This document shows positions 3,448 to 50,661 of a DNA stretch of 52,833 bases, one piece after another. The notes under the pieces were generated by a model. The model did not search any database, was not told the DNA's origin, and worked only from the letters and a program-made list of their open reading frames with translations. Source of the DNA: Pirellulales bacterium (GTDB taxonomy: Bacteria; Planctomycetota; Planctomycetia; Pirellulales; S012-138); assembly GCA_028066245.1 (NCBI GenBank), contig JALCBR010000021.1, forward strand, positions 1 through 52,833, in the 5' to 3' direction. Position 1 is the first letter of the stretch; every line of letters begins with the position of its first letter. A program made the position numbers and the translations under genes.

Positions 3448-5523
3448 TTATCGTAATAGAATTCCAATCAAGACCAGCAAACCGAGCACCATCGCCAAGG
3501 CATAAAACTGCACCAGGCCAATCTGCATTGGGCGGAGCACGGCGCCAAAAACTCTCGGTAGCCAGCCGCAAAGGTTTACCAACCCATCAATCAGCAGCAT
3601 GTCCAGCACATAGAAAATGTGAGCCAGGATCTTCAGCGGCCAGATAATGAACACGCTGTAGAGCTGATCGAAAAATAACTTGCCGTACGAAAGCTGATAC
3701 AACCAAGCGGCCTTCATTGTGTCCGTCAGCGCGGAAACGGTGCCTGGCGAGCGCAGGTACATGAACGCTGCCGCGCCAATCCCCACAACTGAAATCACTG
3801 TACCGATGATGGCCACATCCCAATGGAAGCCGGCATGCTCCGCGCCGCGGAGGCGTTCCATAGAAAGTGAAGGCGTGTGGGCCAGAAAGTTGCTGAACCA
3901 CGGCCCCAACGCTCCGGCAGCCAACGCCAGGAAACCCAAAAGCATTAACGGAATAGTCATCGTCGAGGGCGACTCATGGGCATGATGACCGGCTTCCTCG
4001 GGGATCTCCTCTTCGCCGTAAAATGTCTGGAAGAACGCCCGGAACGTGTAGAAGGCTGTGCACAGCGCTGCTGCCCAGGCAAGCCAATACAGTGTTGTGA
4101 ACAAGGCATTCGTGGACGGGTCTCCGTGAGCTGCATCATGTACGGCTGCTAAAACAGCGTCTTTGCTCCAAAATCCAGCAAACGGGATCACGCCGGCCAG
4201 CGCCAAGCACCCCAGTAAGAACGTCGCGTGCGTAACAGGCATCAGTTTCCGCAAGCCACCAAAGCGGCGGATGTCAATCACACCGCCCATGGCGTGCATC
4301 ACGCTACCGGCGCCCAGGAACAAGCAAGCTTTGAAGAAGGCGTGTGTGAACAGGTGGAACATTCCGGCGACCACGCCAGCTAGCGAGGCCGTACCCAGCG
4401 CCAGGAACATGAAACCCAATTGGCTGACGGTGGAATACGCGAGAATGCGTTTCAAGTCAGTCTGCGTGATGGCGATGAAGCCAGCCATGATCGCCGTCAG
4501 ACAGCCAATGCACGCAACCACGATCGGCGCAGCGCCCGAGGCCACAAACAGCGGCGTACACCGCGCCACCATGTACACACCGGCGGTTACCATTGTGGCT
4601 GCGTGAATGAGGGCGGAAACGGGCGTGGGCCCTTCCATCGCATCGGGGAGCCACACGTGAAGTGGCCACTGAGCGCTTTTGCCACAAGCACCCACAAACA
4701 GTAACAGACAGATTGCGGTTAATACGCCGGCTGTTGCTAGCGGGAAACTTGAATAATCGCCATCACTAAGGACTTGCTGACCGAAGACGCCCGGCTGAGT
4801 GATGACGCCGTCAACTTCTGTGTCATGAAAGTTGAGCGTTCCCAGCGTGGTCCAGATCAGAAACACTCCCAAAGCGAAGCCGAAATCACCAACGCGGTTG
4901 ACCAAAAACGCTTTCATGCCGGCGGCGGATGCTTCCGGCTTTTGGTACCAGAAGCCAATCAGTAAATAGCTGCAAACGCCCACCGCTTCCCAAAACACGT
5001 ACAGCAGCGCAAAGTTCGAGACTGAGACCAACATGGTCATGGAGAACACGAACAGCGACACGTACGTAAAAAACCGCCAGTAGCCGGGATCGTCGTTCAT
5101 GTAACCGATCGAGTACACCGCAACCAGCGTGGCCACAAACGTGACCATCACCAGCATGATGGCCGAGAGCGGATCCGTGCGGAGTGTGACATCGATGACG
5201 AAATCAAACGATGAATCTTCCGCCGTTGTCGCGTCTGTGGCGCTATCGCCAGAGTGCGTCATCGCCGCGGGGACTGCCGCCCAGGTCCATAGATCTAATC
5301 TTTTCTCAACACGAGACGAGCCGCCGGGGACGCCGTCATCGTCAGTCTGCTGGTAAACTTGCCACAGCAGGATTGAGGCACACACGAACGACGCGGCAAT
5401 GCAAAGCACCGCAGGCAGATGGCTCTTGTTCTTAAGCAGTCTTGGCCCCAGCGCAGCAGTCAATAAGGCCGCAGCAAGCGGTAGCGCGGGGATCAGCACC
5501 ATCCATGTGGTCAGCTCAAACAT
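3448..5523 (-). CDS. nuoL: NADH-quinone oxidoreductase subunit L
   Basis: Largest antiporter-like subunit of complex I, 691 residues, starting at ATG 5523, which lies inside the last codons of nuoK (8-nt overlap, so coupled translation). The signatures GACGKSAQWPLHVWLPDAM and GPTPVSALIHAATMVTAGVY around the key Lys and His are present, as is KRILAYSTVSQLGFM. The C-terminal part should include the lateral amphipathic helix typical of NuoL. A soluble loop of about 60 residues after the second helix carries Asp/Ser/Thr-rich sequence (SGDSATDATTAEDSS), probably extracytoplasmic. Length is slightly above the usual 610-650. It was assigned to NuoL and not NuoM by size, motif and position between nuoK and nuoM. 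Confidence 0.96.
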   Translation of the reverse strand: MFELTTWMVLIPALPLAAALLTAALGPRLLKNKSHLPAVLCIAASFVCASILLWQVYQQTDDDGVPGGSSRVEKRLDLWTWAAVPAAMTHSGDSATDATTAEDSSFDFVIDVTLRTDPLSAIMLVMVTFVATLVAVYSIGYMNDDPGYWRFFTYVSLFVFSMTMLVSVSNFALLYVFWEAVGVCSYLLIGFWYQKPEASAAGMKAFLVNRVGDFGFALGVFLIWTTLGTLNFHDTEVDGVITQPGVFGQQVLSDGDYSSFPLATAGVLTAICLLLFVGACGKSAQWPLHVWLPDAMEGPTPVSALIHAATMVTAGVYMVARCTPLFVASGAAPIVVACIGCLTAIMAGFIAITQTDLKRILAYSTVSQLGFMFLALGTASLAGVVAGMFHLFTHAFFKACLFLGAGSVMHAMGGVIDIRRFGGLRKLMPVTHATFLLGCLALAGVIPFAGFWSKDAVLAAVHDAAHGDPSTNALFTTLYWLAWAAALCTAFYTFRAFFQTFYGEEEIPEEAGHHAHESPSTMTIPLMLLGFLALAAGALGPWFSNFLAHTPSLSMERLRGAEHAGFHWDVAIIGTVISVVGIGAAAFMYLRSPGTVSALTDTMKAAWLYQLSYGKLFFDQLYSVFIIWPLKILAHIFYVLDMLLIDGLVNLCGWLPRVFGAVLRPMQIGLVQFYALAMVLGLLVLIGILLR

Positions 5524-35401: not shown

Positions 35402-37162
35402 GTGTCAAAGAAAACAAAGGCATCTAAAACCGGGCCGGACGAACGCCGGGTGGGCGCGCCACGTGAATTAGTTGAATCAGTCGTCATCGCGTTCGTGCTT
35501 GCTTTCCTGTTTCGCACGTTTGAAGCGGAAGCGTTTGTGATCCCTACCGGGTCAATGGCTAGCAGTTTAATGGGGGTTCACAAAGATGTGGAGTGCGAAG
35601 CCTGCGGGTTTCAATATCAGATTGGCGCCAGCCAAGAGGAAGACGCCAAAGACGGTTTGGCGGCTCGCCATCACATCATGAGTGGCCAAGAGCAGCGAAA
35701 AGTCTGGAGTGACGTCGCCGTGAACACGGGCGTGTGTCCCAATTGTCGCTTTCCCATGAAACTGCAGTTGCCCGATGGGAATCCAACGTTCCAGGGCGAT
35801 CGAATTCTGGTGTCTAAGTTTGCCTATCAGTTTGGCGAGCCCCGCCGTTGGGATGTGATCGTCTTTCGCTATCCCAACCAATCTTGGACGAACTACATCA
35901 AACGCCTGGTTGGATTGCCCGGCGAAACAATTGACATTCGCAATGGTGATATCTTTGTTAAACCGCCTGACGGCGATCAGTACACGATTGCGCGCAAGCC
36001 GACAGACAAACTCATGGCCATGGCACGGATTGTCCATGACACCAATTTTGTCCCCATGGTTAATCCCGGCAAGTCAATCTACGACCTCGGCTGGCCCGCT
36101 CGTTGGCAAGCGGCGCCGGACTGGCTGGAGTTATCGAAGAAATACCCGGAGAATCCGCTTGCGGGTTGGGGAGAGCCCAGCTTGGAGAGCGGGCAGTTCC
36201 AGCCTGCGACGGATTTCAAATCTTATGCGACTGACGGCACCTCAAAAGAAATGGCTTGGCTGCGGTATCGGCATATCACGCCGTCTGAAGGTGATTGGAA
36301 TGCCATGCTCAAAGATCAGCCACAGACGCAGAGTGCCAATGCGCTAACCGACCGCATCGATGATTTCTTGCCATACAATGCGGGCAAACCCAATGTCTAC
36401 GTTGACGGTCTCGGCCTAAAGTTGGTCGTCAGACCAGCGCCAAAAGTGGAGGAGCATTGGGTTGGCGATCTTATCCTTGAAGCATCGCTGGATATCCAAG
36501 ATAGCTCTGGTGAGATCATGCTAGAGCTTGTGGAGGCAGGCTACTTCTTTCGCTGCGTCATCGATGTCCAGTCGGGCAATGCGGAACTCTCAATTGAGAG
36601 CTCGTCCTCGACGGAACGTTCCGGTGAAGTCCTGTTCGATGCTTCCAGCGACGGTGACCCATTAGCATTTGCCAAAGCACAAACACCAGTCAAAGGCGCT
36701 GGGAAATATCAGGTTCGTTTCGCTAATGTTGATGACGAGTTGCGGCTTTGGATCAGTCAAACGGATGCTTGGACCGAGCCCGACCCGGTTGTCTTTGACA
36801 GTCCCACGACCTACTCACCCTTGCCGATGAAAGCGGTTGCGGACCCGAGCACTGCCGCCGATGATTCACCGGTAGGCGTGGGCGCCAGGGAAGTCGCTCT
36901 CTCTGCATCACGTCTTCGGATCTTGCGTGACATCTATTACACGCAGCCTAAGAGCTCTGAAGCAAAATATGTGGCCAATGTCGCCATTCCACCTGGCAAG
37001 CTGTTTGCGATGGGCGATAATTCTGATCGGAGCAAAGACAGTCGCTTTTTTGGCTTCGTTGATATCGAGCGAGAATTGATCGGCAAAGCCCTTTACGTCT
37101 ATTGGCCACACGCTTGGAAGACTGTCTGGCCGAATTTTGAACGGATGAGCTTCGTCCGCTGA
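35402..37162 (+). CDS. lepB: Signal peptidase I with zinc-ribbon and large insertion
   Basis: Membrane serine protease that removes signal peptides. It has 586 residues, far above the usual 200-330, from GTG at 35402. One N-terminal helix (ESVVIAFVLAFLFRTF) is followed by the catalytic Ser51 in IPTGSMASSL. Immediately after comes a zinc-ribbon-like insert with C65/C68 (CEAC) and C112/C115 (CPNC). The catalytic Lys167 is in NYIKRLVGLPGE, after GDRILVSKFAY. A 370-residue insert follows; its middle is beta-rich (ILEASLDIQDSSGEIMLELV, YQVRFANVDDELRLWIS). The last conserved box, MGDNSDRSKDSRFFG, is near 538-551. Activity should be retained because both catalytic residues are present. The next gene, lptB, is 48 nt away on the same strand. 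Confidence 0.93.
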   Translation: MSKKTKASKTGPDERRVGAPRELVESVVIAFVLAFLFRTFEAEAFVIPTGSMASSLMGVHKDVECEACGFQYQIGASQEEDAKDGLAARHHIMSGQEQRKVWSDVAVNTGVCPNCRFPMKLQLPDGNPTFQGDRILVSKFAYQFGEPRRWDVIVFRYPNQSWTNYIKRLVGLPGETIDIRNGDIFVKPPDGDQYTIARKPTDKLMAMARIVHDTNFVPMVNPGKSIYDLGWPARWQAAPDWLELSKKYPENPLAGWGEPSLESGQFQPATDFKSYATDGTSKEMAWLRYRHITPSEGDWNAMLKDQPQTQSANALTDRIDDFLPYNAGKPNVYVDGLGLKLVVRPAPKVEEHWVGDLILEASLDIQDSSGEIMLELVEAGYFFRCVIDVQSGNAELSIESSSSTERSGEVLFDASSDGDPLAFAKAQTPVKGAGKYQVRFANVDDELRLWISQTDAWTEPDPVVFDSPTTYSPLPMKAVADPSTAADDSPVGVGAREVALSASRLRILRDIYYTQPKSSEAKYVANVAIPPGKLFAMGDNSDRSKDSRFFGFVDIERELIGKALYVYWPHAWKTVWPNFERMSFVR

Positions 37163-38152: not shown

Positions 38153-38496
38153 TTCTTATTTTCTTGCTGACGCCTAGATTGTGTTGGGATCACTCATAGC
38201 GGCAGCCACGAGCTACCCGCAGTGTGTGCGGTCGATTACAGCCGTCAATAGCCTGTTTTGCTAACTAGCACGGCTTGCCGGCATCTCGAAATCGCACTCT
38301 GTTTGAGCTGCGCCCAAATTGACGGCAACTTGAACATCAAGAGTTGCTCTAGGGGGATTCCTCGCTTTTTTCCACTTGCGCAGAAAGGGAATCTGGAGCA
38401 CACAAGAGCGCGGAAACTGACCTATGTTTCACTGTCGGGCATATCGCCCCAGCACTTCTTGAATGTCCAGACACCCACAGCTTGCGTCGTCGCGCC
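38153..38496. other. Upstream region of the four-gene signalling operon
   Basis: 344 bases between lptB and the GGDEF gene. The GGDEF frame remains open back to a TAG at 38350-38352 but has no ATG or GTG there; a TTG at 38482 is the only earlier start. The promoter for the operon is expected here. No confident -35/-10 pair, hairpin or repeat was found. Confidence 0.4.
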
Positions 38497-39534
38497 ATGC
38501 CCCACCAACATGCTGCAAGGAGCCAAGTCGGGCGACTGATTCCGTCCGAGGATGTCCGCTTTGAATCACCTCCAGTGATCCACCAAGGTACAACGCTTGG
38601 TGAAATACGCGTTGCGATCGAGAACCATCACTACATCCTTGCCGCCAATGATCTTGGGCAAATCGTGGGGATCGTTTCCTGTCAACGGATGTTGGAGCAC
38701 CTGGAATCCAAGCATGACCGAGAGCGGGGGCGCTGGGAGTCAATGTATCTTGGCGCCTTTGTTAGCGCTGAGGTGGGCGCCGGTGATCGTCCGGTTGGTC
38801 AAGCCTTTCGGGAGGGAATCGAGTGCATCACGGTCATGGAAAATGACTCGATTGTTGCGATCGCCGCAGAGAACGATGTTTTCTTGAGCTTGCAGTGGAT
38901 GGAGCCAACGTTGGCGGCGGCGAGATGCGATCCTTTGACGGGATTAATGAACCGGCTGGGTTATGAGCGCCGCTTAGCGGAGGAGTGGGCTCGCGCTGCG
39001 CGCACTGGCGTGTCCATTGGCGTCATCGTCCTTGATCTTGACGATTTCAAGACCATCAATGATCGCCACGGCCATTTGGCAGGCGACCAAGTGCTTCGTA
39101 AGGTGGGACACATCTTGGAGAAAACACTGCGCTCTTATGACGTCGTGGCACGGTACGGTGGCGACGAATTCGTCGCTCTCTGCTTGGACTGCCAGCCACG
39201 CGACATCGAAATCCCAATCACGCGCTTCCAAGAGACGCTCTCTGCCTCGACCATCAAATACGGCGAGCAGGAACTGCACGTCACCGCTTCAATTGGCGCT
39301 GCGGTACGGCACGATGAGTTCTATACATCGACGCCCTCTGAACTATTCGCCGCCGCAGATGAGTGCGTTTATCAATCCAAACGAGCGGGCACTGGTGCGC
39401 GCGTGATCGAATTCTCAACAGATGGCGATGAGATGATCACCGCCGTTGGTGTTCAAGGCGAAGAATCCGCCAGGCGCATGCCATCGACAGTCTCTGTTGC
39501 AGGCGATGCACGAGATGTGGGAGGACAGTCATGA
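38497..39534 (+). CDS. Diguanylate cyclase with N-terminal CBS-like pair
   Basis: Soluble protein of about 345 residues; ATG at 38497 is used (TTG 38482 is an alternative). The N-terminal 125 residues look like a CBS pair (TTLGEIRVAIENHHYILAAN then QIVGIVSCQRML, and a second REGIECITVMENDSIVAIA). Residues about 140-310 form a GGDEF domain beginning DPLTGLMNRLGYER. The active loop is YGGDEF (G221-F225) and the RxxD inhibitory site is R212-D215, five residues upstream, so both synthesis of cyclic di-GMP and feedback inhibition look intact. A polar tail follows. No membrane helix. CBS domains suggest control by adenine nucleotides. First gene of the four-gene operon; its stop overlaps the next ATG. 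Confidence 0.88.
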   Translation: MPHQHAARSQVGRLIPSEDVRFESPPVIHQGTTLGEIRVAIENHHYILAANDLGQIVGIVSCQRMLEHLESKHDRERGRWESMYLGAFVSAEVGAGDRPVGQAFREGIECITVMENDSIVAIAAENDVFLSLQWMEPTLAAARCDPLTGLMNRLGYERRLAEEWARAARTGVSIGVIVLDLDDFKTINDRHGHLAGDQVLRKVGHILEKTLRSYDVVARYGGDEFVALCLDCQPRDIEIPITRFQETLSASTIKYGEQELHVTASIGAAVRHDEFYTSTPSELFAAADECVYQSKRAGTGARVIEFSTDGDEMITAVGVQGEESARRMPSTVSVAGDARDVGGQS

Positions 39535-40784
39535 AGGCTCGACATGCCCAGTCGGAAGTTGACTGCCGTACTGATCTTGACCAAGATCATGTTCAGGATC
39601 AAACGGCGTCTGTCGAGGTTGGCCGAGCGAGCCGTCCTCAAGGCGATGCATCACCCCCACTCAGGGAAGTGGCTGGCACGACCGCGTCAGCATCATGGCT
39701 TCTGACCGGTCAATCACACGAAAACGCGTCCACGCAAAGTGTCACCATTAAGCACGATCGGTTTTCCGTCGGCCGGCACCAAGAGAATGATCTGTGCATC
39801 AACAACCAGAGCGTTTCCGGCAAGCATGCAGAGTTTGTGTTCTCGGGAGGGGAGATCTATGTCCGTGACCTGGGCAGTACAAATGGCACGCTGCTTAACG
39901 GCCATATGCTGCGCACGCTGACAAAACTCCGCGACGGCGACATCTTGCACTTTGGCGGCGCGATGTTCACGCTGCAGTGCCGTATGGGCAGGGTACCGTC
40001 GCAAACGGTTGCCACTTCGACAACGGAAGAGGCCATCGCGCAAGTTCAGTTTTCCAAACTGATCACGAAGCCGGCAATTGAGCCGTTCTATCAACCGATT
40101 GTGCGGATGAGCGATGATGTTCGCGTTGGCTATGAAGTTCTCTCGCGCAGCCGGCTTGTTGGGCTTGAAACTCCCGCCAAGATGTTCCGCATTGCTGCGC
40201 AGCGTACGTCCGAGGCGGAACTCAGCACAGTCTGTCGATCAGAAGCGTTGCGATCCCTGCCAAAGCTGGGAAGCGCCATGGAATACTACTTGAATACTCA
40301 CCCAAAAGAGATTGGGAAGCCGGAACTGCTCGCTTCGTTGACACAACTGCGCGAGCAATTTCCTGGGTACTCATGCGTGTTGGAGGTTCATGAATCAGCG
40401 ATTGCTTCCATAGACGATCTGCGCGAACTGCGGCGAGGCTTGACGGACTTGCAAATGGGACTCGCGTACGACGACTTTGGCTCTGGACAGGCGAGGCTGG
40501 CCGAACTCGCGGAAGTTCCGCCGGATGTCGTGAAGTTTGATATCAAGCTCATTCGCAGTTTAGATACCGCTTCGTCAAATCGGCTCGCAACGCTGGAAGC
40601 CTTGGTGCGAATGGTCACTGACCTTGGCGTCATCCCGTTAGCCGAAGGTGTGGAAACACAGTCAGTCGCTGAGATCTGCCAACAAGTTGGATTCCTCTAC
40701 GCGCAAGGCTTTCTGTTTGGAAAACCCGCTCCTGCAGCACACTGGATTAGCTCTTCCGACTCGGCATCCACGACATCGCGTTGA
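39531..40784 (+). CDS. FHA domain fused to EAL phosphodiesterase domain
   Basis: Soluble protein of 417 residues. FHA domain at about 55-155 has the phosphothreonine-binding pattern SVGRHQENDLCI, SVSGKHAEF and LGSTNGTLLNG. EAL domain at about 178-410 has metal and catalytic residues in place: E202 (EVLSR in place of EALxR), Asn in LNTHP, Glu in LEVHES, D314/D315 (DDFGSG), K335 (VKFD), E372 (AEGVE) and Gln in YAQGFLFGKP. It should therefore be able to cut cyclic di-GMP. The FHA may dock on targets of the downstream kinase; that link is inferred. ATG overlaps the GGDEF stop by ATGA; the stop is 12 nt before the ATPase gene. Confidence 0.9.
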   Translation: MKARHAQSEVDCRTDLDQDHVQDQTASVEVGRASRPQGDASPPLREVAGTTASASWLLTGQSHENASTQSVTIKHDRFSVGRHQENDLCINNQSVSGKHAEFVFSGGEIYVRDLGSTNGTLLNGHMLRTLTKLRDGDILHFGGAMFTLQCRMGRVPSQTVATSTTEEAIAQVQFSKLITKPAIEPFYQPIVRMSDDVRVGYEVLSRSRLVGLETPAKMFRIAAQRTSEAELSTVCRSEALRSLPKLGSAMEYYLNTHPKEIGKPELLASLTQLREQFPGYSCVLEVHESAIASIDDLRELRRGLTDLQMGLAYDDFGSGQARLAELAEVPPDVVKFDIKLIRSLDTASSNRLATLEALVRMVTDLGVIPLAEGVETQSVAEICQQVGFLYAQGFLFGKPAPAAHWISSSDSASTTSR

Positions 40785-40796: not shown

Positions 40797-42182
40797 ATGA
40801 TTTCGACTCCCGATGCCAGTAGTTCAGAAGCGTCGCTGCTCTCGGCGTTGCTTTCCGGCGAGCGATATTGGCCGACTGAGCCACAGTCAATCGCGGAATT
40901 GGGGCTCTCCGAGCCGTTTCTTGATAGCTTGATCTGTAAGCTGCTTTTGACCAATGGTGACACTAGCGGGCGCAGCATGACTGCGAACGCCTGCATCCCC
41001 TTCTCGATTGTCGAAGAGACGTTAAGCCGGCTGCGGTCCCGACGCTTGGTGACACATACCGGCGCAGGTCAGTTGAATGACTACGTGTACACGCTCACGG
41101 ATGAGGGGCGGTCTCGTGCTCGCATATTTTATCAGGAGTGTGCGTACGTTGGCCCGGCGCCAGTCCCCTTGTTGGATTATGTGATTTCCGTCGAAGCGCA
41201 GGCAATCGGCGAAGAAGCTATCCGCCGCGCGGATCTTACCGATGCGTTTCACGATATCTTCGTTACTCAGGAGATGTTGGACTTGCTGGGTCCAGCGGTT
41301 AACTCCGCCAGCGGAATGTTTCTCTACGGTGCTCCGGGAAATGGAAAGTCAACGCTTGCCCATCGCATCACGGCATGTTTCGGACAATCGATTTGGTTGC
41401 CACACGCTGTGATTGACGGCCGCGAAATCATCACCGTCTTCGATCCCGCATACCACCACCAGTCCGCCAGCACGGCTGGGGCGACGGCGGGTGGTGAGTT
41501 CGACAAGCGTTGGATTCGCGTCCGTCGACCGACGGTCGTGGTCGGTGGTGAAATGACCATGGACAACCTGGAGATCCGGCGCGATCCGGTTTCGCAGATT
41601 AGCGAAGCTCCGCTGCAAATGAAAAGCAACTGCGGCTGTTTGCTGATCGATGACTTTGGCCGCCAACGTGTGGAACCTGCGGAACTTTTGAACCGTTGGA
41701 TTATTCCGTTGGAGAACCGTCATGACTTCCTGACATTGTCCACGGGAAAGAAGATCAAAGTTCCGTTTGAGCAATTGATCATCTTCTCCACCAACCTCGA
41801 TCCAGCAGAACTCGTTGACGAAGCCTTCTTGCGGCGGATTCCTTATCGCATTGAAGTCATGGACCCCGGTGAAGATGAGTTTCACAGTCTCTTTCAGATT
41901 GCCGCTTCTCAGACAGGCTGCGAGTACGATCCGGATGTCGTCAACTACATCCTGGAGCAACACTATCAACCGCAAGGTCGCCCCGTCAGGAGATGCCACG
42001 CCCGTGATCTGTTGCTTCAATTGCGAAACTACTGCACCTACAACGACTTGGCTTTTGAAATGCGGCAAGACTACTTCGACCGCGTAGCTGACGGCTTTTT
42101 TACTCGAGATTTCCAGCACGAAGATGCCCCGATGGATCGACTGCAACAGCCTGGCATGATCGGAGGTGCTTGTGGGGACTGA
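40797..42182 (+). CDS. AAA-type ATPase with winged-helix-like N-terminus
   Basis: Soluble ATPase of 461 residues. The N-terminal 110 residues resemble a winged helix (VEETLSRLRSRRLVTHTGAG then YVYTLTDEGRSRARIF). The AAA core has Walker A GAPGNGKST (178-186), Walker B CLLIDDFG with D285/D286, sensor-1-like LIIFSTNLDP and a following arginine-containing FLRRIPYRIEV. The remaining C-terminal 120 residues are mainly helical. I do not recognise a named family beyond AAA. It is translated from a GAGGAG site over the previous stop and overlaps the next gene by 11 nt, so stoichiometric production with the kinase-tubulin protein is likely. It may remodel that polymer-type GTPase; this is a guess from context. 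Confidence 0.82.
   Translation: MISTPDASSSEASLLSALLSGERYWPTEPQSIAELGLSEPFLDSLICKLLLTNGDTSGRSMTANACIPFSIVEETLSRLRSRRLVTHTGAGQLNDYVYTLTDEGRSRARIFYQECAYVGPAPVPLLDYVISVEAQAIGEEAIRRADLTDAFHDIFVTQEMLDLLGPAVNSASGMFLYGAPGNGKSTLAHRITACFGQSIWLPHAVIDGREIITVFDPAYHHQSASTAGATAGGEFDKRWIRVRRPTVVVGGEMTMDNLEIRRDPVSQISEAPLQMKSNCGCLLIDDFGRQRVEPAELLNRWIIPLENRHDFLTLSTGKKIKVPFEQLIIFSTNLDPAELVDEAFLRRIPYRIEVMDPGEDEFHSLFQIAASQTGCEYDPDVVNYILEQHYQPQGRPVRRCHARDLLLQLRNYCTYNDLAFEMRQDYFDRVADGFFTRDFQHEDAPMDRLQQPGMIGGACGD
42162..42166 (+). promoter_or_regulatory. Shine-Dalgarno that decides the kinase-tubulin start
   Basis: GGAGG five bases before the GTG at 42172. It lies inside the ATPase gene and favours this GTG over the GTG at 42166, which overlaps the site. 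Confidence 0.6.
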
Positions 42183-45100
42183 GGAAAAAATCGGTCAAAC
42201 ATCCGTCCTGTCTGATGCACCAGCTCAAGTCTATGGCGATGTGCCATCGCATGTTGCGGGATACGACTTGGTTGAACGCATTGGGGCTGGCGGCTATGGG
42301 GAAGTGTGGAGAGCCGTGGGGCCTGGCGGGCTATCCAAGGCCGTCAAGATTTTGTATGGCCGTCAAGATGGGCAACAAGCGGAACTCGAATTGAAGTCTT
42401 TGGAGAGGGTGCGCGAACTACGCCATCCTTTTCTGCTGAACATCGAACGTATTGAAGTCAATGATGGCCGTTTGATCGTCGTTTCTGAACTTGCTGACCT
42501 GTGCATGGAGAAACGTTTTGAGCAAGCGGCACGCGATGGACTCCGTGGAATTCCACGCGACGAGTTGCTGGGATACTTACGGGACGCGGCGGACGCGCTC
42601 GACTTCATGGTCGACCAAGGCGGGTTACAGCATTTAGACATCAAGCCTGGCAACTTGATGCTGCTGGGCGACCACGCAAAAGTGGGGGATTTCGGACTGA
42701 CGAAAGACATCTCCACACGGGGCGTCTCGCTCATGGCGGGTTTTACGCCGCTGTATTCCTCGCCGGAGATTTTCGAGGGGCAACCGAGCAATCGAAGCGA
42801 TCAATACAGCTTGGCGATCGTCTACCAGACGATGTTGACGGGACAGCCGCCATTTGCCGGTCGCACTGCCGCGCAACTCACAGCACAGCACTTGAGTAGC
42901 AAGCCGGATCTGACTCCCTTGCAGCCGGCGGATCGCCCCGTGATCGCCCGCGCGCTATCCAAAAACCCACAAGCCCGATTCGAGAATTGTCGACAGTTTG
43001 TTCAAGCACTGAGCCAACGGAAAGGCTCCAACTCAAGCGCTGCAACACGTCAAACGGTCTCTGAATACACGATACTGTCATCCAACATCAAATGCACGCC
43101 TGTTGTCAATCAAGAGGCAATCGTCGCGAGTGCGGATTCACCTCGGCCGGTTGTGACACCGATCTCACCCACGCCGGAGAGTCGGTTGGAATTGAGCTAC
43201 AGGCCGACGATTTTCATTGCCGTTGGGGGAATGGCGGGCCGCATCCTCCATCTCCTCAAGCAGCGCTTGCAAAAAGCCTTCGGGCCAGCCTCCTTGCCAT
43301 CATTCGCCATGGCGTATTTGGATACAGACAAGAATGCGCTGGCGGATGTGTGTGCTGAGAATGTCGAGCACGGGCTGGTCGAGAATGAGCTTTTCCATTT
43401 CCCGCTACGCAGTTTGCAGGACTTTCGGTCAGCCGGATTCCGTGCGTTGGACTGGTTGAGCCGGCGTTGGCTGTACAACATTCCCAAGACCGGCCAGGTG
43501 GAGGGGATACGCCCACTGGGTCGACTGGCGTTGGTTGATCAACAAGACCGTGTGCGCCCGTTCTTGACCGATCTTGTCCGTCAAGCAACTTCTGAACCCG
43601 CGGTTGCGGCCACGAGCAAAGCCACCAGCCTGGAAATCACAACGGAGCCTCCTGACATATTTGTCATCGGATCGACCACTGGCGGCACCGGCAGTGGCGC
43701 TGTCCTTGATATTGGATACCTTGCCAAGGAGATCTGCACGGAGCTGAGGTTTGAGCAATCGCGCATCAATGGAATCCTCTTGCACGCGTCCGGTGCTGTT
43801 CGTGGTAGTGCAGATGTTCAAGAAGCAGGAACAATTTCCCTGCTGCGTGAGCTCCAGCACTACTGCACGCCTGGAGCTGGCGGTGCGAGAGGACTTACTG
43901 CCAATCAGGCGGTGGATCAAGCTGGACCGTTTGATCACACCTATACCGTTCATCTCGGCGACGGGCTCAATGAACGAGAGCAGCCGACTCGTTTAGCGGA
44001 TATTGTCGACTACATGTTTATCAACGTCGCAACTCCCAACCGTGCTTACTTTGACAGTTGGCGCAACCAAAGCAGCGGAGAGGCGGCGGGGTCTGCGACG
44101 GCGATCCGTAGTTTTGGCAGCGCTTCTATTGCCGAAGAAGAACTTCACCATGCGCAAAAGCAGGCGGTCTCGCTTTGCCAGGCATTAACGAACGCGTGGG
44201 CGAATTCAGCATGCACAGCGAACGATGAGGAATTCGAGCAAGGTGCCTTGCGTAACAATGCCCAATCCTTGTTGGCTGAGTTGACGCTTTCTGGCGATCA
44301 ATTGAGAAAAACGGTGACGGAAATTCTCGCCGGCGATGCAGGAGAAGTGCTCACAAGCTGTGCCCGCAGCCAATGTGAATTGATCCTTGCCCAACTGGAA
44401 CCCCAGGGATCTTTCACGAACTCCACTCTCTCAAAAATCACCAACGAATTGCTGCAACAGTCTGGAAAGGCCAACAGTGAAGAAGACAAGTCCCTCCTAG
44501 CGATGGCACAATGTGTCGTTGAAGAGTCCGCAACACCAATTGATGTTACCTTGGGCGATTTGCGCAAGCACGTTCTCGGTTTGGTCGATGGTTCACTTCG
44601 TTTTCGCGGTGCGGACGAAGCCATCAATGCGATGCTGGCCGACGTCAGTTCGACAGGAAAGCGCATGGCGCAATCGCTCACCACCATCGTTAACGATATC
44701 AAACAGACGTGCAGTTCGGTGACGAAAGATCGCGCGGAGCATCCCGCGTCGAGCGAAGAATGGAGGGATGGCGCAGTCCGTCAAGTCATTGGTCAACTCT
44801 GTCAGCAATGCTGCACTTACGCAATCTTTCATGCTGTGACGGATCGGATCGCAAAGACCCGCGAGCTACTGATGGAATTGCGGACGCAGACGGGCGTGTT
44901 CAAGGAAGGAGTTGCCCGAATCTCAAAAGCTTTCGTGTTGCCTGGCGAAAGCTCCGTCACCGTAACGCCCGCAGACATCCAAGAGTTTGACCGTGATTTG
45001 GCCTTGCGAGGGGAGTTTCGGCTTAGTGATCTGCGGGACAAGTCAGCGGAAAAGAACGCATGTGTGTTGCTCTTTGAGAGCGCGCTGACATTCTGCCGTT

Positions 45101-45438
45101 CAAAGATTGGTGCCTCAGGTGCACCAGATGGACAGCCGCCGAAGCAAGACCGATCTTTTCCCAAGTCAGCAACCCCGTTGTTAGCCAATGCTGGGGGCGG
45201 GCGGCGCATTCTTGCTCTTATCCCGAAATCGGCATCGATTGACCTTTGGAAAAAGAATCTAACCGAAACATTTGGCGACTGCGTGTCAGTTCGCCAGGTT
45301 CAGACGAATCGAGTGAACGTGTATTGTGAAATTGAGGGGATCGAGATCAGCAAGATCATCGATCAGCTTTTGCAGTTCCATCCACACATCGGCGAAATTG
45401 CGGATCGCATTCACACGCGAAATGATGTTCAGTGGTAG
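42172..45438 (+). CDS. Ser/Thr protein kinase fused to a tubulin-like GTPase domain
   Basis: Soluble protein of 1088 residues from GTG 42172, overlapping the ATPase gene by 11 nt. Residues about 30-285 are a protein kinase with glycine loop IGAGGYGEVW (about 36-45), Lys59 in KAVKIL, HLDIKPGNL with H154, D156, K158, N161 (HLD in place of HRD), DFG from D173 and a YSSPE segment. After a Ser/Thr-rich linker, a tubulin/FtsZ-like domain begins near 343 (RPTIFIAVGGMAGRIL) with the nucleotide-binding signature STTGGTGSGAV (GGTGSG at 504-509) and a FINVATPNR-type segment. The rest, to 1088, is mainly helical. This matches the bacterial tubulin_2-like family known in outline. No membrane segment. Last gene of the operon. 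Confidence 0.85.
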   Translation: MGTEEKIGQTSVLSDAPAQVYGDVPSHVAGYDLVERIGAGGYGEVWRAVGPGGLSKAVKILYGRQDGQQAELELKSLERVRELRHPFLLNIERIEVNDGRLIVVSELADLCMEKRFEQAARDGLRGIPRDELLGYLRDAADALDFMVDQGGLQHLDIKPGNLMLLGDHAKVGDFGLTKDISTRGVSLMAGFTPLYSSPEIFEGQPSNRSDQYSLAIVYQTMLTGQPPFAGRTAAQLTAQHLSSKPDLTPLQPADRPVIARALSKNPQARFENCRQFVQALSQRKGSNSSAATRQTVSEYTILSSNIKCTPVVNQEAIVASADSPRPVVTPISPTPESRLELSYRPTIFIAVGGMAGRILHLLKQRLQKAFGPASLPSFAMAYLDTDKNALADVCAENVEHGLVENELFHFPLRSLQDFRSAGFRALDWLSRRWLYNIPKTGQVEGIRPLGRLALVDQQDRVRPFLTDLVRQATSEPAVAATSKATSLEITTEPPDIFVIGSTTGGTGSGAVLDIGYLAKEICTELRFEQSRINGILLHASGAVRGSADVQEAGTISLLRELQHYCTPGAGGARGLTANQAVDQAGPFDHTYTVHLGDGLNEREQPTRLADIVDYMFINVATPNRAYFDSWRNQSSGEAAGSATAIRSFGSASIAEEELHHAQKQAVSLCQALTNAWANSACTANDEEFEQGALRNNAQSLLAELTLSGDQLRKTVTEILAGDAGEVLTSCARSQCELILAQLEPQGSFTNSTLSKITNELLQQSGKANSEEDKSLLAMAQCVVEESATPIDVTLGDLRKHVLGLVDGSLRFRGADEAINAMLADVSSTGKRMAQSLTTIVNDIKQTCSSVTKDRAEHPASSEEWRDGAVRQVIGQLCQQCCTYAIFHAVTDRIAKTRELLMELRTQTGVFKEGVARISKAFVLPGESSVTVTPADIQEFDRDLALRGEFRLSDLRDKSAEKNACVLLFESALTFCRSKIGASGAPDGQPPKQDRSFPKSATPLLANAGGGRRILALIPKSASIDLWKKNLTETFGDCVSVRQVQTNRVNVYCEIEGIEISKIIDQLLQFHPHIGEIADRIHTRNDVQW

Positions 45439-45604: not shown

Positions 45605-47629
45605 CTAGCGTCCGGACGGATCGGGCGCGCGAATCGGCGGCTCATCGACCTTGCGAAGCACAAACAAGATCTTTTGCCGTGCGATAGCTTCACCGGAGCT
45701 ATCTTGCCAGAGGTGCTGGTTGGTACGAAAGTTGGCGTCCTGCAATTCATCGAAAGCCACTGTTCCGGCAGCCCCATGAATCCGTGCTGAGTTTTTCTGG
45801 AATTCGAACAGCCATTGCTGAATCTGCACAGCGCTCAGCCGGTAGAAAAATGTTGGGTTGCCAGGTTGCGTGAAATCGGAAGGAGTTTCACCTCCGCGTC
45901 CGCCGCCGTCTACTGCCTCGTTCCTCTCTTGCGCCTGCGCCGTTCCTGCACCTGCCCGGTCATTGCTTGATTGATCTTTGCTCGCCTGGTGCGTTTCTTT
46001 ATCACCGCGATCACTCCTGACGGCTTTGTTGTTGTCGGCGTGATTTTTCACAGCATCCTGCTGGCGAGCCTGTCGTTCTCCAGTGTTTTGCTGGTTCGTC
46101 ACAGGCGGGTTCATGCCGCCGCCACCTATTCCCGCTGTTACTTGATCTTGAAATTCCACTGGCGGCTGAGTCGCGGTTTGCTGTTCATCAGATTGTGGAC
46201 GGGTGAAGTAGTAGGATTGAATCTGTTGGCCGAGTTGCGAGTACATCGCCGCCTCTGGCGGAGAGACGATGCCGTTACTGAGGACGCCTTCCAGCTCAGA
46301 GAATCGAACCCTGAACCTGTCGGCCGGATTTTGTGCCAAAGCTGTTCCACGGTGATCTCGATTCGATGGGTGCGACTGAAGTGCGCTCAGCAAATCATTG
46401 ATCTTTGCCGCTTCGGCCTCGACATAGACAAACTGAACCTCCGCTTCGGAGAGCCCGTCAAGGTTCTTGCGGGCGAGCTCTTCCGCGTTCTCAGTTCCCA
46501 GTCGGCCAAAACCTTCTGCGAGGTAGTCTTGCCGGCTGGTTCCGAGCATGGCTTCCGTTGGGATCTCGTGCTGCTTGTTCTGATCTCGATCGTCTTGCCT
46601 GCGATCTTCTCTGTGCTTGACTTCCCCCCGGCTCTGCATTTCCGCTTCAGATTCCTTTAGCTCCCCACCAATCCTGACATCACGACCGCGGCGTCTTAAT
46701 CCAGTACCCGCGATCACAGGTTCGTTTTCGAGCCCCTCAGCCCAGATGATTTGCTGCTGCTGGAGGAGCTGCCGAAAAGCCTCGCTTCGCCAGGCGGATT
46801 CAGCAACGTCCACATGCACAATCATCAAGCTTGGATTAACAGAGAGGTTTTCAAAGCCCATCGCGGGAAGATCGCCAGCAGCCTCCACGTGATCGCTTTC
46901 TTCATGAACTTTCGCTAAAGAGTCAGCCCCCATTTGCTCCCGGGATGAATCTTTGTCAGGTTGCATGGTTCGTGCGTTCCGGCCTCCTCTGTCGGAACGC
47001 TCAGGAAACTCAGACTGCGAAGCTCCCATGAGCCCCCGACTTCGACCAGCTACTGCATCGCCAAGGACCTCTGCTTCTACCGGCAAGTTCTTGATCCGCT
47101 GGTGAGCGTCTTCAAGGCCATCGTCGCCTTTGCGGTTGACAATCTCTCCCAGCTTGCCGGACTTTGTGTTGATTTCCAATTCCGAAACGCCTGAGAACCC
47201 TCCGGCCAAGTGCTGTCGAGCGAGATCTCGGTTCAACGGCTCATCAAGCTGAACAAACTCACGAGAGCGGCCGCCAAAGGGGCCAGCGACCATATACGTT
47301 ACTGCCGCCAGGAGCACGGCGACAGCTGCAGCAATATTCAACCACGATGCAGATCGCCAAATACGGCTTGGGCCGGCGTTGTAAGTGGCGATGGTTTCCG
47401 TCGACGAACTCGCAGGAGGCTGAATTTCTTGTAAGACTTGATGGGCAAGGTTCGCATTCATTTTTGCCGCCGGCAAAGCGCGCAGTGCCGAACCAAACTC
47501 GCGCAATTCTGCGCAAAGCTCTCGAGCCTGAGGATTTGAATCCAGCAAGGCTTCAACTTCGGCACGCTCTTCTGGCGACAGGTCGTCGTCGATGTACCGG
47601 CTGATCAATTCAGTGGAAAATTCTCGCAT
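45605..47629 (-). CDS. Large anti-sigma-factor-like membrane protein
   Basis: A 674-residue protein encoded after the ECF sigma gene. The N-terminal 70 residues (ISRYIDDDLSPEERAEVEAL and RELCAELREFGSALRALP) resemble anti-sigma domains, but the zinc-binding His/Cys set of ZAS domains is missing: only one Cys is visible. One helix follows near 93-112 (SWLNIAAAVAVLLAAVTYMV). The rest, about 550 residues, would lie outside the membrane. It includes a stretch rich in Gln, Asn, Arg, Asp and Lys (about 510-590) and a C-terminal ordered-looking segment (NPTFFYRLSAVQIQQWLFEF). ATG at 47629 starts the conserved domain. Regulation of the adjacent sigma is inferred from order. Confidence 0.7.
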   Translation of the reverse strand: MREFSTELISRYIDDDLSPEERAEVEALLDSNPQARELCAELREFGSALRALPAAKMNANLAHQVLQEIQPPASSSTETIATYNAGPSRIWRSASWLNIAAAVAVLLAAVTYMVAGPFGGRSREFVQLDEPLNRDLARQHLAGGFSGVSELEINTKSGKLGEIVNRKGDDGLEDAHQRIKNLPVEAEVLGDAVAGRSRGLMGASQSEFPERSDRGGRNARTMQPDKDSSREQMGADSLAKVHEESDHVEAAGDLPAMGFENLSVNPSLMIVHVDVAESAWRSEAFRQLLQQQQIIWAEGLENEPVIAGTGLRRRGRDVRIGGELKESEAEMQSRGEVKHREDRRQDDRDQNKQHEIPTEAMLGTSRQDYLAEGFGRLGTENAEELARKNLDGLSEAEVQFVYVEAEAAKINDLLSALQSHPSNRDHRGTALAQNPADRFRVRFSELEGVLSNGIVSPPEAAMYSQLGQQIQSYYFTRPQSDEQQTATQPPVEFQDQVTAGIGGGGMNPPVTNQQNTGERQARQQDAVKNHADNNKAVRSDRGDKETHQASKDQSSNDRAGAGTAQAQERNEAVDGGGRGGETPSDFTQPGNPTFFYRLSAVQIQQWLFEFQKNSARIHGAAGTVAFDELQDANFRTNQHLWQDSSGEAIARQKILFVLRKVDEPPIRAPDPSGR

Positions 47630-47715
47630 TGGCTTTCTGGCGCTCGCACCGGAGCACAATCACGCAAACTATTGATAATCAAAAGCCTGCTCAACAATAT
47701 CGGCATTCTCGCGTT

Positions 47716-47746
47716 CGCGATGACAGTCGTAGTGCGCGCGATGACA
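47716..47746. repeat. Two direct repeats 21 bp apart between sigma and anti-sigma genes
   Basis: CGCGATGACA occurs at 47716-47725 and again at 47737-47746, start to start 21 bp, which is two helical turns. It lies in the 128-base gap between the sigma and anti-sigma genes. This spacing is typical of a dimeric or tandem protein-binding site. No function is known. Confidence 0.4.
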
Positions 47747-47757
47747 ATTGCACACTC

Positions 47758-48306
47758 CTAATCTTCCTGCATGACCTCCTTGAGATGTTCGCGAAGGTCC
47801 ATCCGCGCGCGGTGAAGGCGACTGCGGACCGTGCCGATAGGCAGGTCCAACATCTCCGCAATCTCCTCGTACGAGCAATCCTCCATCTCCCGGAGGATCA
47901 ACACAGTGCGATGTTCTTCCGTTAGCGCTTCCAACGCCGTATTAAGCTGGGCAGCTCGCTCGGTGAGTTCCATGCGGTCGGGCACAAGAGCCGCGGCTGG
48001 CTCTGCGCCCATTTCATCTTTTCCGTGTTCTAACGATACCGAGGGGCGGCGTTTGCGACGCCTGCTGATCGAAACGTTGAACGCAATCCGATACAGCCAT
48101 GTGTAAAACGCCGAAGTGCCCTTGAACGTGCTGAGCTTGGTAAACGCTTGGACGAAGGCGTCCTGGACTACGTCTTGAGCTTCCTCAGGGCAGCGAACAA
48201 CATGCACGAGCGAATTAAACAGCCGGTCTTGGTACGCACGCACCAAGTCTCCAAAGGCGGCCGTATCGCCTGCCAAAGTGGCCTGAATCAGCTCAGCATC
48301 GTTCAC
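47758..48306 (-). CDS. ECF-type RNA polymerase sigma factor
   Basis: Sigma-70 family, extracytoplasmic function type, 182 residues from GTG at 48306. Region 2 is at about 10-90 (DVVQDAFVQAFTKLSTFKG and AFYTWLYRIAFNVSISR, with the region 2.4 helix) and region 4 at about 120-178 (LREMEDCSYEEIAEMLDLP then GTVRSRLHRARMDLREHL). The linker contains a short charged stretch. The downstream gene encodes a membrane protein with an anti-sigma-like N-terminus. A candidate ECF promoter (GGAACT, 16 nt, CGTC) lies just upstream, which suggests autoregulation. Confidence 0.93.
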   Translation of the reverse strand: MNDAELIQATLAGDTAAFGDLVRAYQDRLFNSLVHVVRCPEEAQDVVQDAFVQAFTKLSTFKGTSAFYTWLYRIAFNVSISRRRKRRPSVSLEHGKDEMGAEPAAALVPDRMELTERAAQLNTALEALTEEHRTVLILREMEDCSYEEIAEMLDLPIGTVRSRLHRARMDLREHLKEVMQED

Positions 48307-48498: not shown

Positions 48499-50661
48499 CT
48501 ATCGCCAAGCCGGCGAAATTCCTTGCCGTTCGATGGATTCTTGGATCGTTTCTTCAGCGCTTTTTTCATATGGCAAGCGACGGAAATAGGTCAACAGGCC
48601 TAATGTGATAGCAGCAGCGAATGCAACGGCCGGCCATTGAAAACGCAGGCCTTCTTCAGCAGAACTAACAATGAACCACTCCCAGCCATCGAGCCGAGGC
48701 GTACCGTTCTTCAACAGCCAACTCAACGTGACCAGCAAACCATTGTGAATGAAGTGGAACACCATTGCCGGCAGGATGCTTCCGGTTTGAACGACCAAAT
48801 AGCCAAGGACAAGCCCCAGAGCGCAGGCGACGATGGACTGTTGCAGAACGAAATGGGCCAAGCCAAAGAGGATGCTGGTAAACAGGATCGCCAACCGTTT
48901 GTGCCCTAAGCGACGAAATCCACTCAGAATAAATCCGCGAAACGCCAGTTCTTCACAAATGGCAGGCGCAACCGCAAACGCCAGCAGCATCAACGGAAAG
49001 CTCATCTCTGTGTCAAAAAGCTGAGCGTACGCTTCCTGCGTTTCTTGGGGCAATGGATAAAGCTGCTGGACGAGGCCGTTGACCTCCAGTGCGAGGGGAT
49101 GAATGGCCAATGCCAGGAGTCCGGCTGCCACAACACTCCACGCCTGGGGTAGCTTCAGCGAGAGCGTCTTGCGCGCGCGCTTGGACATGACGAATGTCAA
49201 CAGCAACGCTGGCCCCAGCACGGCCACCAATTGCGGCAAGATCGTCATCAAGGCGAGATTCCGAACACGCCCTGCCAGCAGGAAATTGAAGCCGAACTGG
49301 ATCAACAAAATCAGCAACCCGCACACCACGGCGGCGGCCACAGGCGGAGTTTCTTGTCGGTGACGTAGGTAATACTTGATCCGCAAGAGCAGATCCAGGC
49401 GCTCGCTCTCTCGGAACAGAACGCTCTCTTTGTTGAACTGATCAACAGCCCACCGGAATGCCAACATGCAGCAGAGCCCAGTGACGGCTGCGACAGGCAC
49501 GAGATGCCGCAAAGCAAGCACATAGTCACCTTCAATCGTGGCACGCAGGACCAGCACGATGCCTGTCAACGGAATCAAGCTGTTGCCCAGGTTCAACTCA
49601 AAGCTGGGCGACATCGGCAAGACCACCAGCGGGAGCGTGATCAGGAACAGCGGCATCAGGTAATACTGCCCTTCCTTGGTGCTGCGAGCGAACACGGCCA
49701 GCGCCAGACAAAGCGCGCTGAACAGAGAAGAGACCGGAATGACTGTCAGGAATAGCCATAGGTACGCAATTGCAGGTGGAGAGCCCAGGTTGGGCATGGA
49801 AGATTGAAAGCTCTTCAAGACAAAGGAGCCCGTCAACCCCACGCTCATCAGGTTCAACGAGACTGTGACGACAGAGAACAGCATGACCGTCAGCAGCTTG
49901 CCCCAGACGATTTCGCTCCGCACGGCCGGGCTGGCCAGCAAGGTCTCCAGGGTGCCCCGTTCCTTCTCCCCCGCACAGAGGTCAATCGCTGGATAGAAAG
50001 CACCGGTCAAAGCCCAAATCAAGAGCAGAAAAGGGAAGACGATCGACCAGAAAGCCGCCGAGCGAAGCGATTCATCCGCTACGTCGGTTTCGGCCAGGGC
50101 AAAGGGTTCAATCTCGGCAGGTTCAATTCCGCGGCGTGATAACTCTCCGAACATGATGGCCTGCCGCCAGCCCAGCAGCACGCGTTTCAGCCGAGCTGCT
50201 GTGACCTGAGACTTTCGCTTCGCCGAGTTGAAGGAGATCTCGGGGATTGGCGTTTTCATGCCGCCCGCCACGGCCAAAGCATCAAAGCCATCTGGGAAAT
50301 GCAACACCGCCTGCACGGTACCGTCCTGAACAAGTTTCCTGGCCTCGTCCAGAGGGACATCAAACCGGAGATTCAGTAACTTATTTGCGTCTTCGCCTGC
50401 TTCGTTGGCGGTTGCCGCCCAAGTTGCATGGAATCGATCTTCTTCGTCAAACAAGGCTGGCGCCGTAGGCAACCGATCTCGCCCGACAATCACCACCTCT
50501 GTTGGATGCTCACGCATGAACTGCGAAAGCTGGAAGAAGCTGATGCCCACGAATGGGTACAACAGCATGGGGAGGACCAAAATCATGAACAGCGTGCGAC
50601 GGTCGCGCAATTGATCGCGAACCTCACGCAGAAAGATCAACTTGACGTTGGACCAGTTCAT
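48499..50661 (-). CDS. ABC-2 type permease fused to CPBP intramembrane protease domain
   Basis: Membrane protein of 720 residues. Residues about 1-400 resemble NatB-type ABC-2 permeases (IFLREVRDQLRDRRTLFMIL at the N-terminus, then a long extracytoplasmic domain and helices including CAGEKERGTLETLLASP, the ABC-2 hallmark). The C-terminal about 250 residues are a CPBP (Abi) domain with EELAFRG near 570, FGLAHF near 600 and HFIHN near 635, giving the Glu-Glu-Arg and His residues of the intramembrane metalloprotease. CPBP proteins can process peptides or prenylated CAAX-like ends; whether this one cleaves is unknown. The partner ATPase gene lies 48 nt upstream. Confidence 0.87.
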   Translation of the reverse strand: MNWSNVKLIFLREVRDQLRDRRTLFMILVLPMLLYPFVGISFFQLSQFMREHPTEVVIVGRDRLPTAPALFDEEDRFHATWAATANEAGEDANKLLNLRFDVPLDEARKLVQDGTVQAVLHFPDGFDALAVAGGMKTPIPEISFNSAKRKSQVTAARLKRVLLGWRQAIMFGELSRRGIEPAEIEPFALAETDVADESLRSAAFWSIVFPFLLLIWALTGAFYPAIDLCAGEKERGTLETLLASPAVRSEIVWGKLLTVMLFSVVTVSLNLMSVGLTGSFVLKSFQSSMPNLGSPPAIAYLWLFLTVIPVSSLFSALCLALAVFARSTKEGQYYLMPLFLITLPLVVLPMSPSFELNLGNSLIPLTGIVLVLRATIEGDYVLALRHLVPVAAVTGLCCMLAFRWAVDQFNKESVLFRESERLDLLLRIKYYLRHRQETPPVAAAVVCGLLILLIQFGFNFLLAGRVRNLALMTILPQLVAVLGPALLLTFVMSKRARKTLSLKLPQAWSVVAAGLLALAIHPLALEVNGLVQQLYPLPQETQEAYAQLFDTEMSFPLMLLAFAVAPAICEELAFRGFILSGFRRLGHKRLAILFTSILFGLAHFVLQQSIVACALGLVLGYLVVQTGSILPAMVFHFIHNGLLVTLSWLLKNGTPRLDGWEWFIVSSAEEGLRFQWPAVAFAAAITLGLLTYFRRLPYEKSAEETIQESIERQGISPAWR

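Follow-up and report, generated by a model that had tools for sequence, protein, structure and literature searches.

A protein kinase fused to a tubulin-like GTPase domain (PK-FtsZl1) is inherited in the planctomycete order Pirellulales together with a AAA+ ATPase and a protein that combines an FHA with an EAL domain, and the three genes very probably form one functional unit. They were found in the window, by which we mean the whole 52,833-nucleotide stretch of DNA analysed: contig 19, about 56% G+C, of a 4.94-Mb genome that is 97.5% complete and whose closest named relatives are planctomycete MAGs. Together with a gene for a GGDEF diguanylate cyclase they make up a same-strand operon of four genes—GGDEF, FHA-EAL, AAA and fusion—that overlap or lie 12 bases apart (Table 1). 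A scan for promoters and terminators returned fewer sites than it did in shuffled sequences. The architecture of the fusion is already known. Makarova and Koonin (2010; PMC2875224) defined FtsZl1 and, in the passages available, reported an N-terminal PK on four planctomycete members; the available part of PMC9871819 likewise gives a kinase–FtsZl1 fusion for Planctomycetes, and that of PMC11032199 names a tubulin-like domain as the commonest partner of planctomycete kinases confined to the cytosol. Domain order and phylum of these kinase-bearing members are the same as those of the window fusion. The operon setting is more informative than the fusion itself.

Table 1. Features of the operon and of the fusion protein
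Feature	Coordinates	Strand	Basis
GGDEF diguanylate cyclase, intact GGDEF at 39157-39171	38482..39534	+	GGDEF 9.5e-41
FHA-EAL protein: phosphothreonine reader and predicted c-di-GMP phosphodiesterase	39531..40784	+	FHA 6.3e-20, EAL 1.1e-35
Thr159 of FHA-EAL, conserved linker threonine 3' of FHA, candidate phosphosite	40005..40007	+	alignment
AAA+ ATPase, 461 aa, dedicated partner	40797..42182	+	Walker A/B, weak Pfam AAA, co-occurrence, tree
PK-FtsZl1 fusion protein, 1088 aa	42172..45438	+	ORF and Pfam; SD GGAGG 42162-42166
Ser/Thr protein kinase domain, residues 31-279, non-RD (HLD)	42262..43008	+	Pfam Pkinase; catalytic residues in 83/83 homologues
Tubulin_2 (FtsZ-like 1) GTPase domain	43210..44130	+	PF13809 88.1 bits; 91.4 bits in genome search
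GGTGSG nucleotide loop (T4), residues 504-509	43681..43698	+	motif match
Predicted long helical/coiled-coil insertion, about 325-330 residues, inside second tubulin subdomain	44206..45180	+	AlphaFold2 secondary structure
Predicted C-terminal strands and helices completing second tubulin subdomain	45199..45408	+	AlphaFold2, VIA-align

The fusion protein

The reading frame can begin at either of two GTG codons, 42166 or 42172. The second is the better start because GGAGG lies, by eye, five bases upstream of it. A preliminary description of this DNA had proposed that kinase and GTPase share one chain, and both domains do score above their Pfam cut-offs: Pkinase well above, at E 1.1e-24, and Tubulin_2 (PF13809; residues 347-653, E 8.9e-25) with 88.1 bits where the cut-off is 27, the family that had been anticipated for the second part. 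In the numbering of that description the kinase motifs are a glycine loop at 38, K59, HLDIKPGN at 154 (with N161) and DFG at 173, and HLD marks the enzyme as non-RD. Judged by sequence, the residue set of an active Ser/Thr kinase (K, E, HxD, N and DFG) appears complete. The lysine, the alpha-C glutamate, HLD, the asparagine and DFG recur in all 83 homologous chains, with a single DYG (Y for F), and so the kinase part is not a chance match. A separate kinase HMM gave implausibly high scores and matched proteins lacking a Pfam kinase, and was dropped. The absence of a membrane segment also holds, the most hydrophobic 19-residue stretch averaging only 1.17 on the Kyte-Doolittle scale.

The GTPase signature STTGGTGSG is sited at residues 501-509. 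Its T4 loop reads GGTGSG or GGTGGG in 43 of the 83 homologues; the rest have other variants or do not match the search pattern. The T7 motif of FtsZ, NxDxxD, is not conserved among the 83 (D628 in 38 rows, R631 in 58), which makes GTP hydrolysis by the FtsZ route doubtful. PF00091, the canonical FtsZ/tubulin family, is not among the Pfam families of the fusion at E<=1. Searching PDB chains with the GTPase and C-terminal part was uninformative. The sequence search yielded a single chance row (E 0.75), and the profile search chiefly picked up helical bundles and coiled coils.

A predicted split tubulin fold

The tubulin-like identity of the second part is supported by an AlphaFold2 model of residues 334-1088 (19 sequences; mean pLDDT 79.9, pTM 0.60), all 25 Foldseek matches of which at E <= 0.001 are to tubulin, FtsZ, CetZ or TubZ. 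A model lacking a GTPase fold around the GGTGSG loop, which would have spoken against that identity, was not what the prediction gave. VIA-align places the model at Z 22-27 over 281-337 residues, consistent with a two-subdomain tubulin fold; the best row, CetZ 3zid, has Z 27.1 and rmsd 3.7 over 305 residues and spans model residues 10..743. FtsZl1 proteins have a long coiled-coil after the GTPase domain, and long helices are predicted here at model residues 322-650. The strands beyond them seem to complete the second subdomain, because the VIA-align match extends to the C-terminus. The motif RIHTRNDVQW, whose R, D and W are invariant (alignment A5), ends past this element.

A second model, of residues 636-1088 alone, was built from 17 sequences; two of the 19 were omitted for their broken or truncated C-termini. 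It reproduces the elements of the larger model (mean pLDDT 72.3). Of the 50 VIA-align rows shown for it, 38 are FtsZ, and almost all of these align around residues 216-316 (M. jannaschii 247-351), with rmsd 2.1-3.5 and Z 7.0-8.1, a Z at the level of chance arrangements. Foldseek gave no match to this model at E <= 0.001; its top rows, mostly helical proteins, were set aside as helix matches. On these models, the second tubulin subdomain is likely interrupted by the helical insertion and completed by the C-terminal strands.

Makarova and Koonin, in the text available of PMC2875224, describe a C-terminal domain without detectable similarity to FtsZ or tubulin, whereas our models suggest an interrupted second subdomain. 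The split fold, if real, would place FtsZl1 fully within the tubulin superfamily. With FtsZ, tubulin, CetZ and TubZ the window fusion has in common the predicted fold and the T1, T2 and T4 loops; unlike them, it lacks a PF00091 match and a conserved T7, and carries an insertion of ~325 residues and a fused kinase.

Distribution and co-inheritance

Among the 146 genomes of the order, PF13809 matches 64. Of these, 58 have the fusion, one has a kinase-less domain beside a AAA gene (G008, counted as lacking the fusion, hence 58 and not 59) and five have other Tubulin_2 proteins. We fetched the regions around all 68 listed matches outside the window, and set aside five Tubulin_2 loci that the window tubulin query did not match (L072, L074, L095, L098 and L099). 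FHA-EAL lies near 79 of 84 fusion loci and AAA near 67, in varying gene order; these counts are not independent, since the loci are partly redundant (L050/L132 and L055/L106 are the same genome fetched twice, with identical AAA). Four of the five fusion loci without FHA-EAL stop at or near a contig edge; the fifth, L118 from Rhodopirellula europaea, does not, and FHA-EAL was not found near it.

Across the 146 genomes, the dedicated AAA is found in 53 of the 58 that have the fusion and in 1 of the 88 that lack it (Fisher p about 1e-32, ignoring relatedness), and FHA-EAL in 55 of 58 versus 5 of 88 (p about 2e-30, likewise ignoring relatedness). Both definitions were post hoc: FHA-EAL presence means a score of at least 147 bits across 200 or more positions, chosen by eye, and a dedicated AAA is one above 650 bits, a threshold that falls in a gap between 656 and 632 bits and with which the tree agrees. 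The co-occurrence holds also where the AAA gene sits on another contig. The five genomes with FHA-EAL and no PK-FtsZl1 are G052, G112, G116, G121 and G128. In G008 (99% complete) an FtsZl1 ORF (L040 4649-7348, minus strand) adjoins the AAA gene, the kinase is missing, and FHA-EAL has no match at 1e-20, which makes it one of 9 such genomes among the 146. This loss, a single case, points the way one would expect of two units, kinase with FHA and AAA with FtsZl1.

In a sample of the phylum, PF13809 matched 14 of 294 genomes, 11 of them over the cut-off. Among five proteins scanned from outside the order, one (L186, from G432, another order) is a kinase fusion; it is the closest to the window's PK-FtsZl1 among the relatives fetched, a likeness in sequence that horizontal transfer may possibly explain.

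The AAA+ partner

Walker A (GAPGNGKST) and Walker B (LLIDDFGRQR) can be read by eye in the AAA protein, and its Pfam AAA matches are weak. It matches only general AAA+ ATPases, such as VCP/Cdc48, spastin and Msp1. The AAA tree gathers the fusion-linked proteins in one branch (SH-aLRT 99) of 70 rows, 66 linked and four unlinked, the DNA fetched for those four holding no fusion; every one of the remaining 55 rows is unlinked. Unlinked paralogues occur in most genomes of the order, and no neighbour is conserved at the 59 loci compared: the two largest neighbour clusters (53/59 and 21/59 loci) were overlapping frames inside the AAA gene and were discarded. The window genome has a second AAA of the family, on contig 147 at ~3942-5216, which scores like the unlinked paralogues.

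Two states of the c-di-GMP enzymes

The FHA residues that bind phosphothreonine (R, S, H and N) are conserved in every row that reaches them. The EAL active site, which we take to consist of eight positions, occurs in two states: of 78 gap-free FHA-EAL rows, 41, the window among them, keep all eight residues and 37 keep five or fewer (L117, with gaps at these sites, was excluded). Mapped on 63 rows of the AAA tree, the two states require at least two changes. Among the 37 fusion loci with a degenerate EAL, 35 adjoin a GGDEF-family gene, mostly on the opposite strand, and the other two end at contig edges. None of the 35 genes keeps GG[DE]EF; those scanned with Pfam have CBS and often REC domains, and one locus (L059) has an additional second gene with an intact GGEEF. 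An intact GGDEF is adjacent at only 2 of 40 intact-EAL loci, the window and L100, so that a c-di-GMP step may belong to the window lineage only. The N-terminal CBS match of the window's GGDEF protein is weak (15.2 bits, below the cut-off of 24). The linker threonine is present in 39 of 40 intact-EAL rows, and in all 38 other rows a threonine stands two positions further on. EAL and GGDEF decay in step and FHA and kinase are retained, a pattern that shows which functions selection keeps.

In FHA switches of the GarA/OdhI type, a small FHA protein stands beside a Ser/Thr kinase, and a threonine close to its FHA domain is conserved. The window operon resembles them in both respects; it differs in that its threonine is C-terminal of the FHA domain and its output domain is EAL. 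The match to the OdhI model, 38.2 bits, is far below the cut-off of 200.

Proposed mechanism and alternatives

We propose, at a probability of roughly 0.4 and from what the sequences suggest, that FtsZl1 assembly sets the activity of the kinase, that the FHA protein reads its output and that the AAA+ ATPase remodels the polymer. Going by its fold, the GTPase domain would bind GTP and self-associate, with filaments the probable result, and the helical insertion would serve as an arm for lateral contacts or as an adaptor. Assembly would gather the kinase domains; because they are non-RD, proximity or binding, and not phosphorylation of the activation loop, would switch them. The kinase would then phosphorylate threonines, the first candidate being the conserved one in the FHA-EAL linker, and FHA would bind the phosphothreonine, so that FHA-EAL is recruited to the polymer or switched by it; we infer this step from the unfailing FHA site and the co-occurrence. 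At loci of the window type, local c-di-GMP turnover would be set by the intact EAL and the opposing cyclase encoded in that operon. At the other loci EAL and GGDEF both look inactive, and their role would be that of scaffolds or sensors. The dedicated AAA+ would remodel or disassemble the polymer.

Several observations weaken this mechanism: the unconserved T7, the altered T4 loops of some homologues, the absence of a nearby FHA-EAL at L118, the four fusion-less AAA rows in the linked branch and the five fusion-less genomes with FHA-EAL. The state of T7 speaks for a domain that would form no filament and, as a GTP switch or scaffold, would only sense nucleotide and so control the kinase, a serious possibility; in the passages available, PMC2875224 reports that T6-H7 could not be recognised and entertains, as the less likely case, FtsZl1 proteins that do not make filaments. 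Co-inheritance of a AAA+ partner argues against such a switch, as does the predicted structure, in which both tubulin subdomains are kept. That arrangement is otherwise seen in polymer-forming families.

It is quite unlikely that the operon is instead a conflict or defence system, with AAA+ and tubulin as sensor and kinase and second messenger as outputs, an analogy drawn from the ternary and GTPase-centred systems of Kaur et al. (2020), which, in the part available, include tubulins, kinases and FHA. The AAA protein does match bpMoxR weakly, yet its 15.4 bits fall below the cut-off of 27. The 18 window proteins scanned, which take in all four operon members and genes on both flanks, include no vWA domain (frequent but not universal in FtsZl1 operons), effector or TRAFAC GTPase. 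With bpMoxR below its cut-off and vWA absent, the locus does not qualify as a MoxR–vWA ternary system, and its inheritance tracks order-wide clades. That kinase, FtsZl1 and FHA-EAL share only an operon and a lineage, with no mutual action, we regard as very unlikely: the five FHA-EAL genomes without a fusion would fit, but the same partners recur in several gene orders and co-occur with an AAA gene on another contig.

A tubulin relative in planctomycetes without FtsZ

PF00091 was found in 0 of 146 genomes of the order and in 13 of 14 control genomes, and a repeat check of the window genome again gave no match. The fusion, its one PF13809 match, is the sole tubulin-superfamily protein that these models find there. 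The locus bears on how planctomycetes organise and divide their cells without FtsZ. It is a defined three- to four-gene system around one tubulin relative, with a specific candidate phosphosite, a candidate reader and a candidate remodelling ATPase, all of a size expressible in E. coli. A bolder reading, which we hold to be doubtful, is that in FtsZ-less planctomycetes the sole tubulin-superfamily protein combines a kinase with a split tubulin fold, and that its assembly state drives both the phosphorylation read by FHA and the turnover of c-di-GMP. The cytoskeletal polymer would then be a signalling organelle, and in some lineages the c-di-GMP enzymes would have turned into pseudo-enzyme scaffolds. 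No such protein is named in the available passages of PMC5147048 and PMC12283558 on planctomycete division. The AAA and FHA-EAL/GGDEF partners were not found described in the literature searched, most subscription journals being beyond its reach; the supplements of PMC2875224, which cover operon genes, may already list AAA or FHA-EAL neighbours.

Other genes in the window

Downstream of the operon and convergent with it, on the minus strand at 45605-48306, are a sigma-70 family factor and then a 684-aa, zf-HC2 anti-sigma-like protein. The protein at 35402-37162 (plus strand, 586 aa) is a Signal peptidase I; its Peptidase_S26 match falls in two stretches, probably with a long insertion between them. 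An ABC-2 membrane protein at 48499-50661 (minus strand) carries a C-terminal CAAX prenyl endopeptidase domain (Rce1-like) in the same chain.
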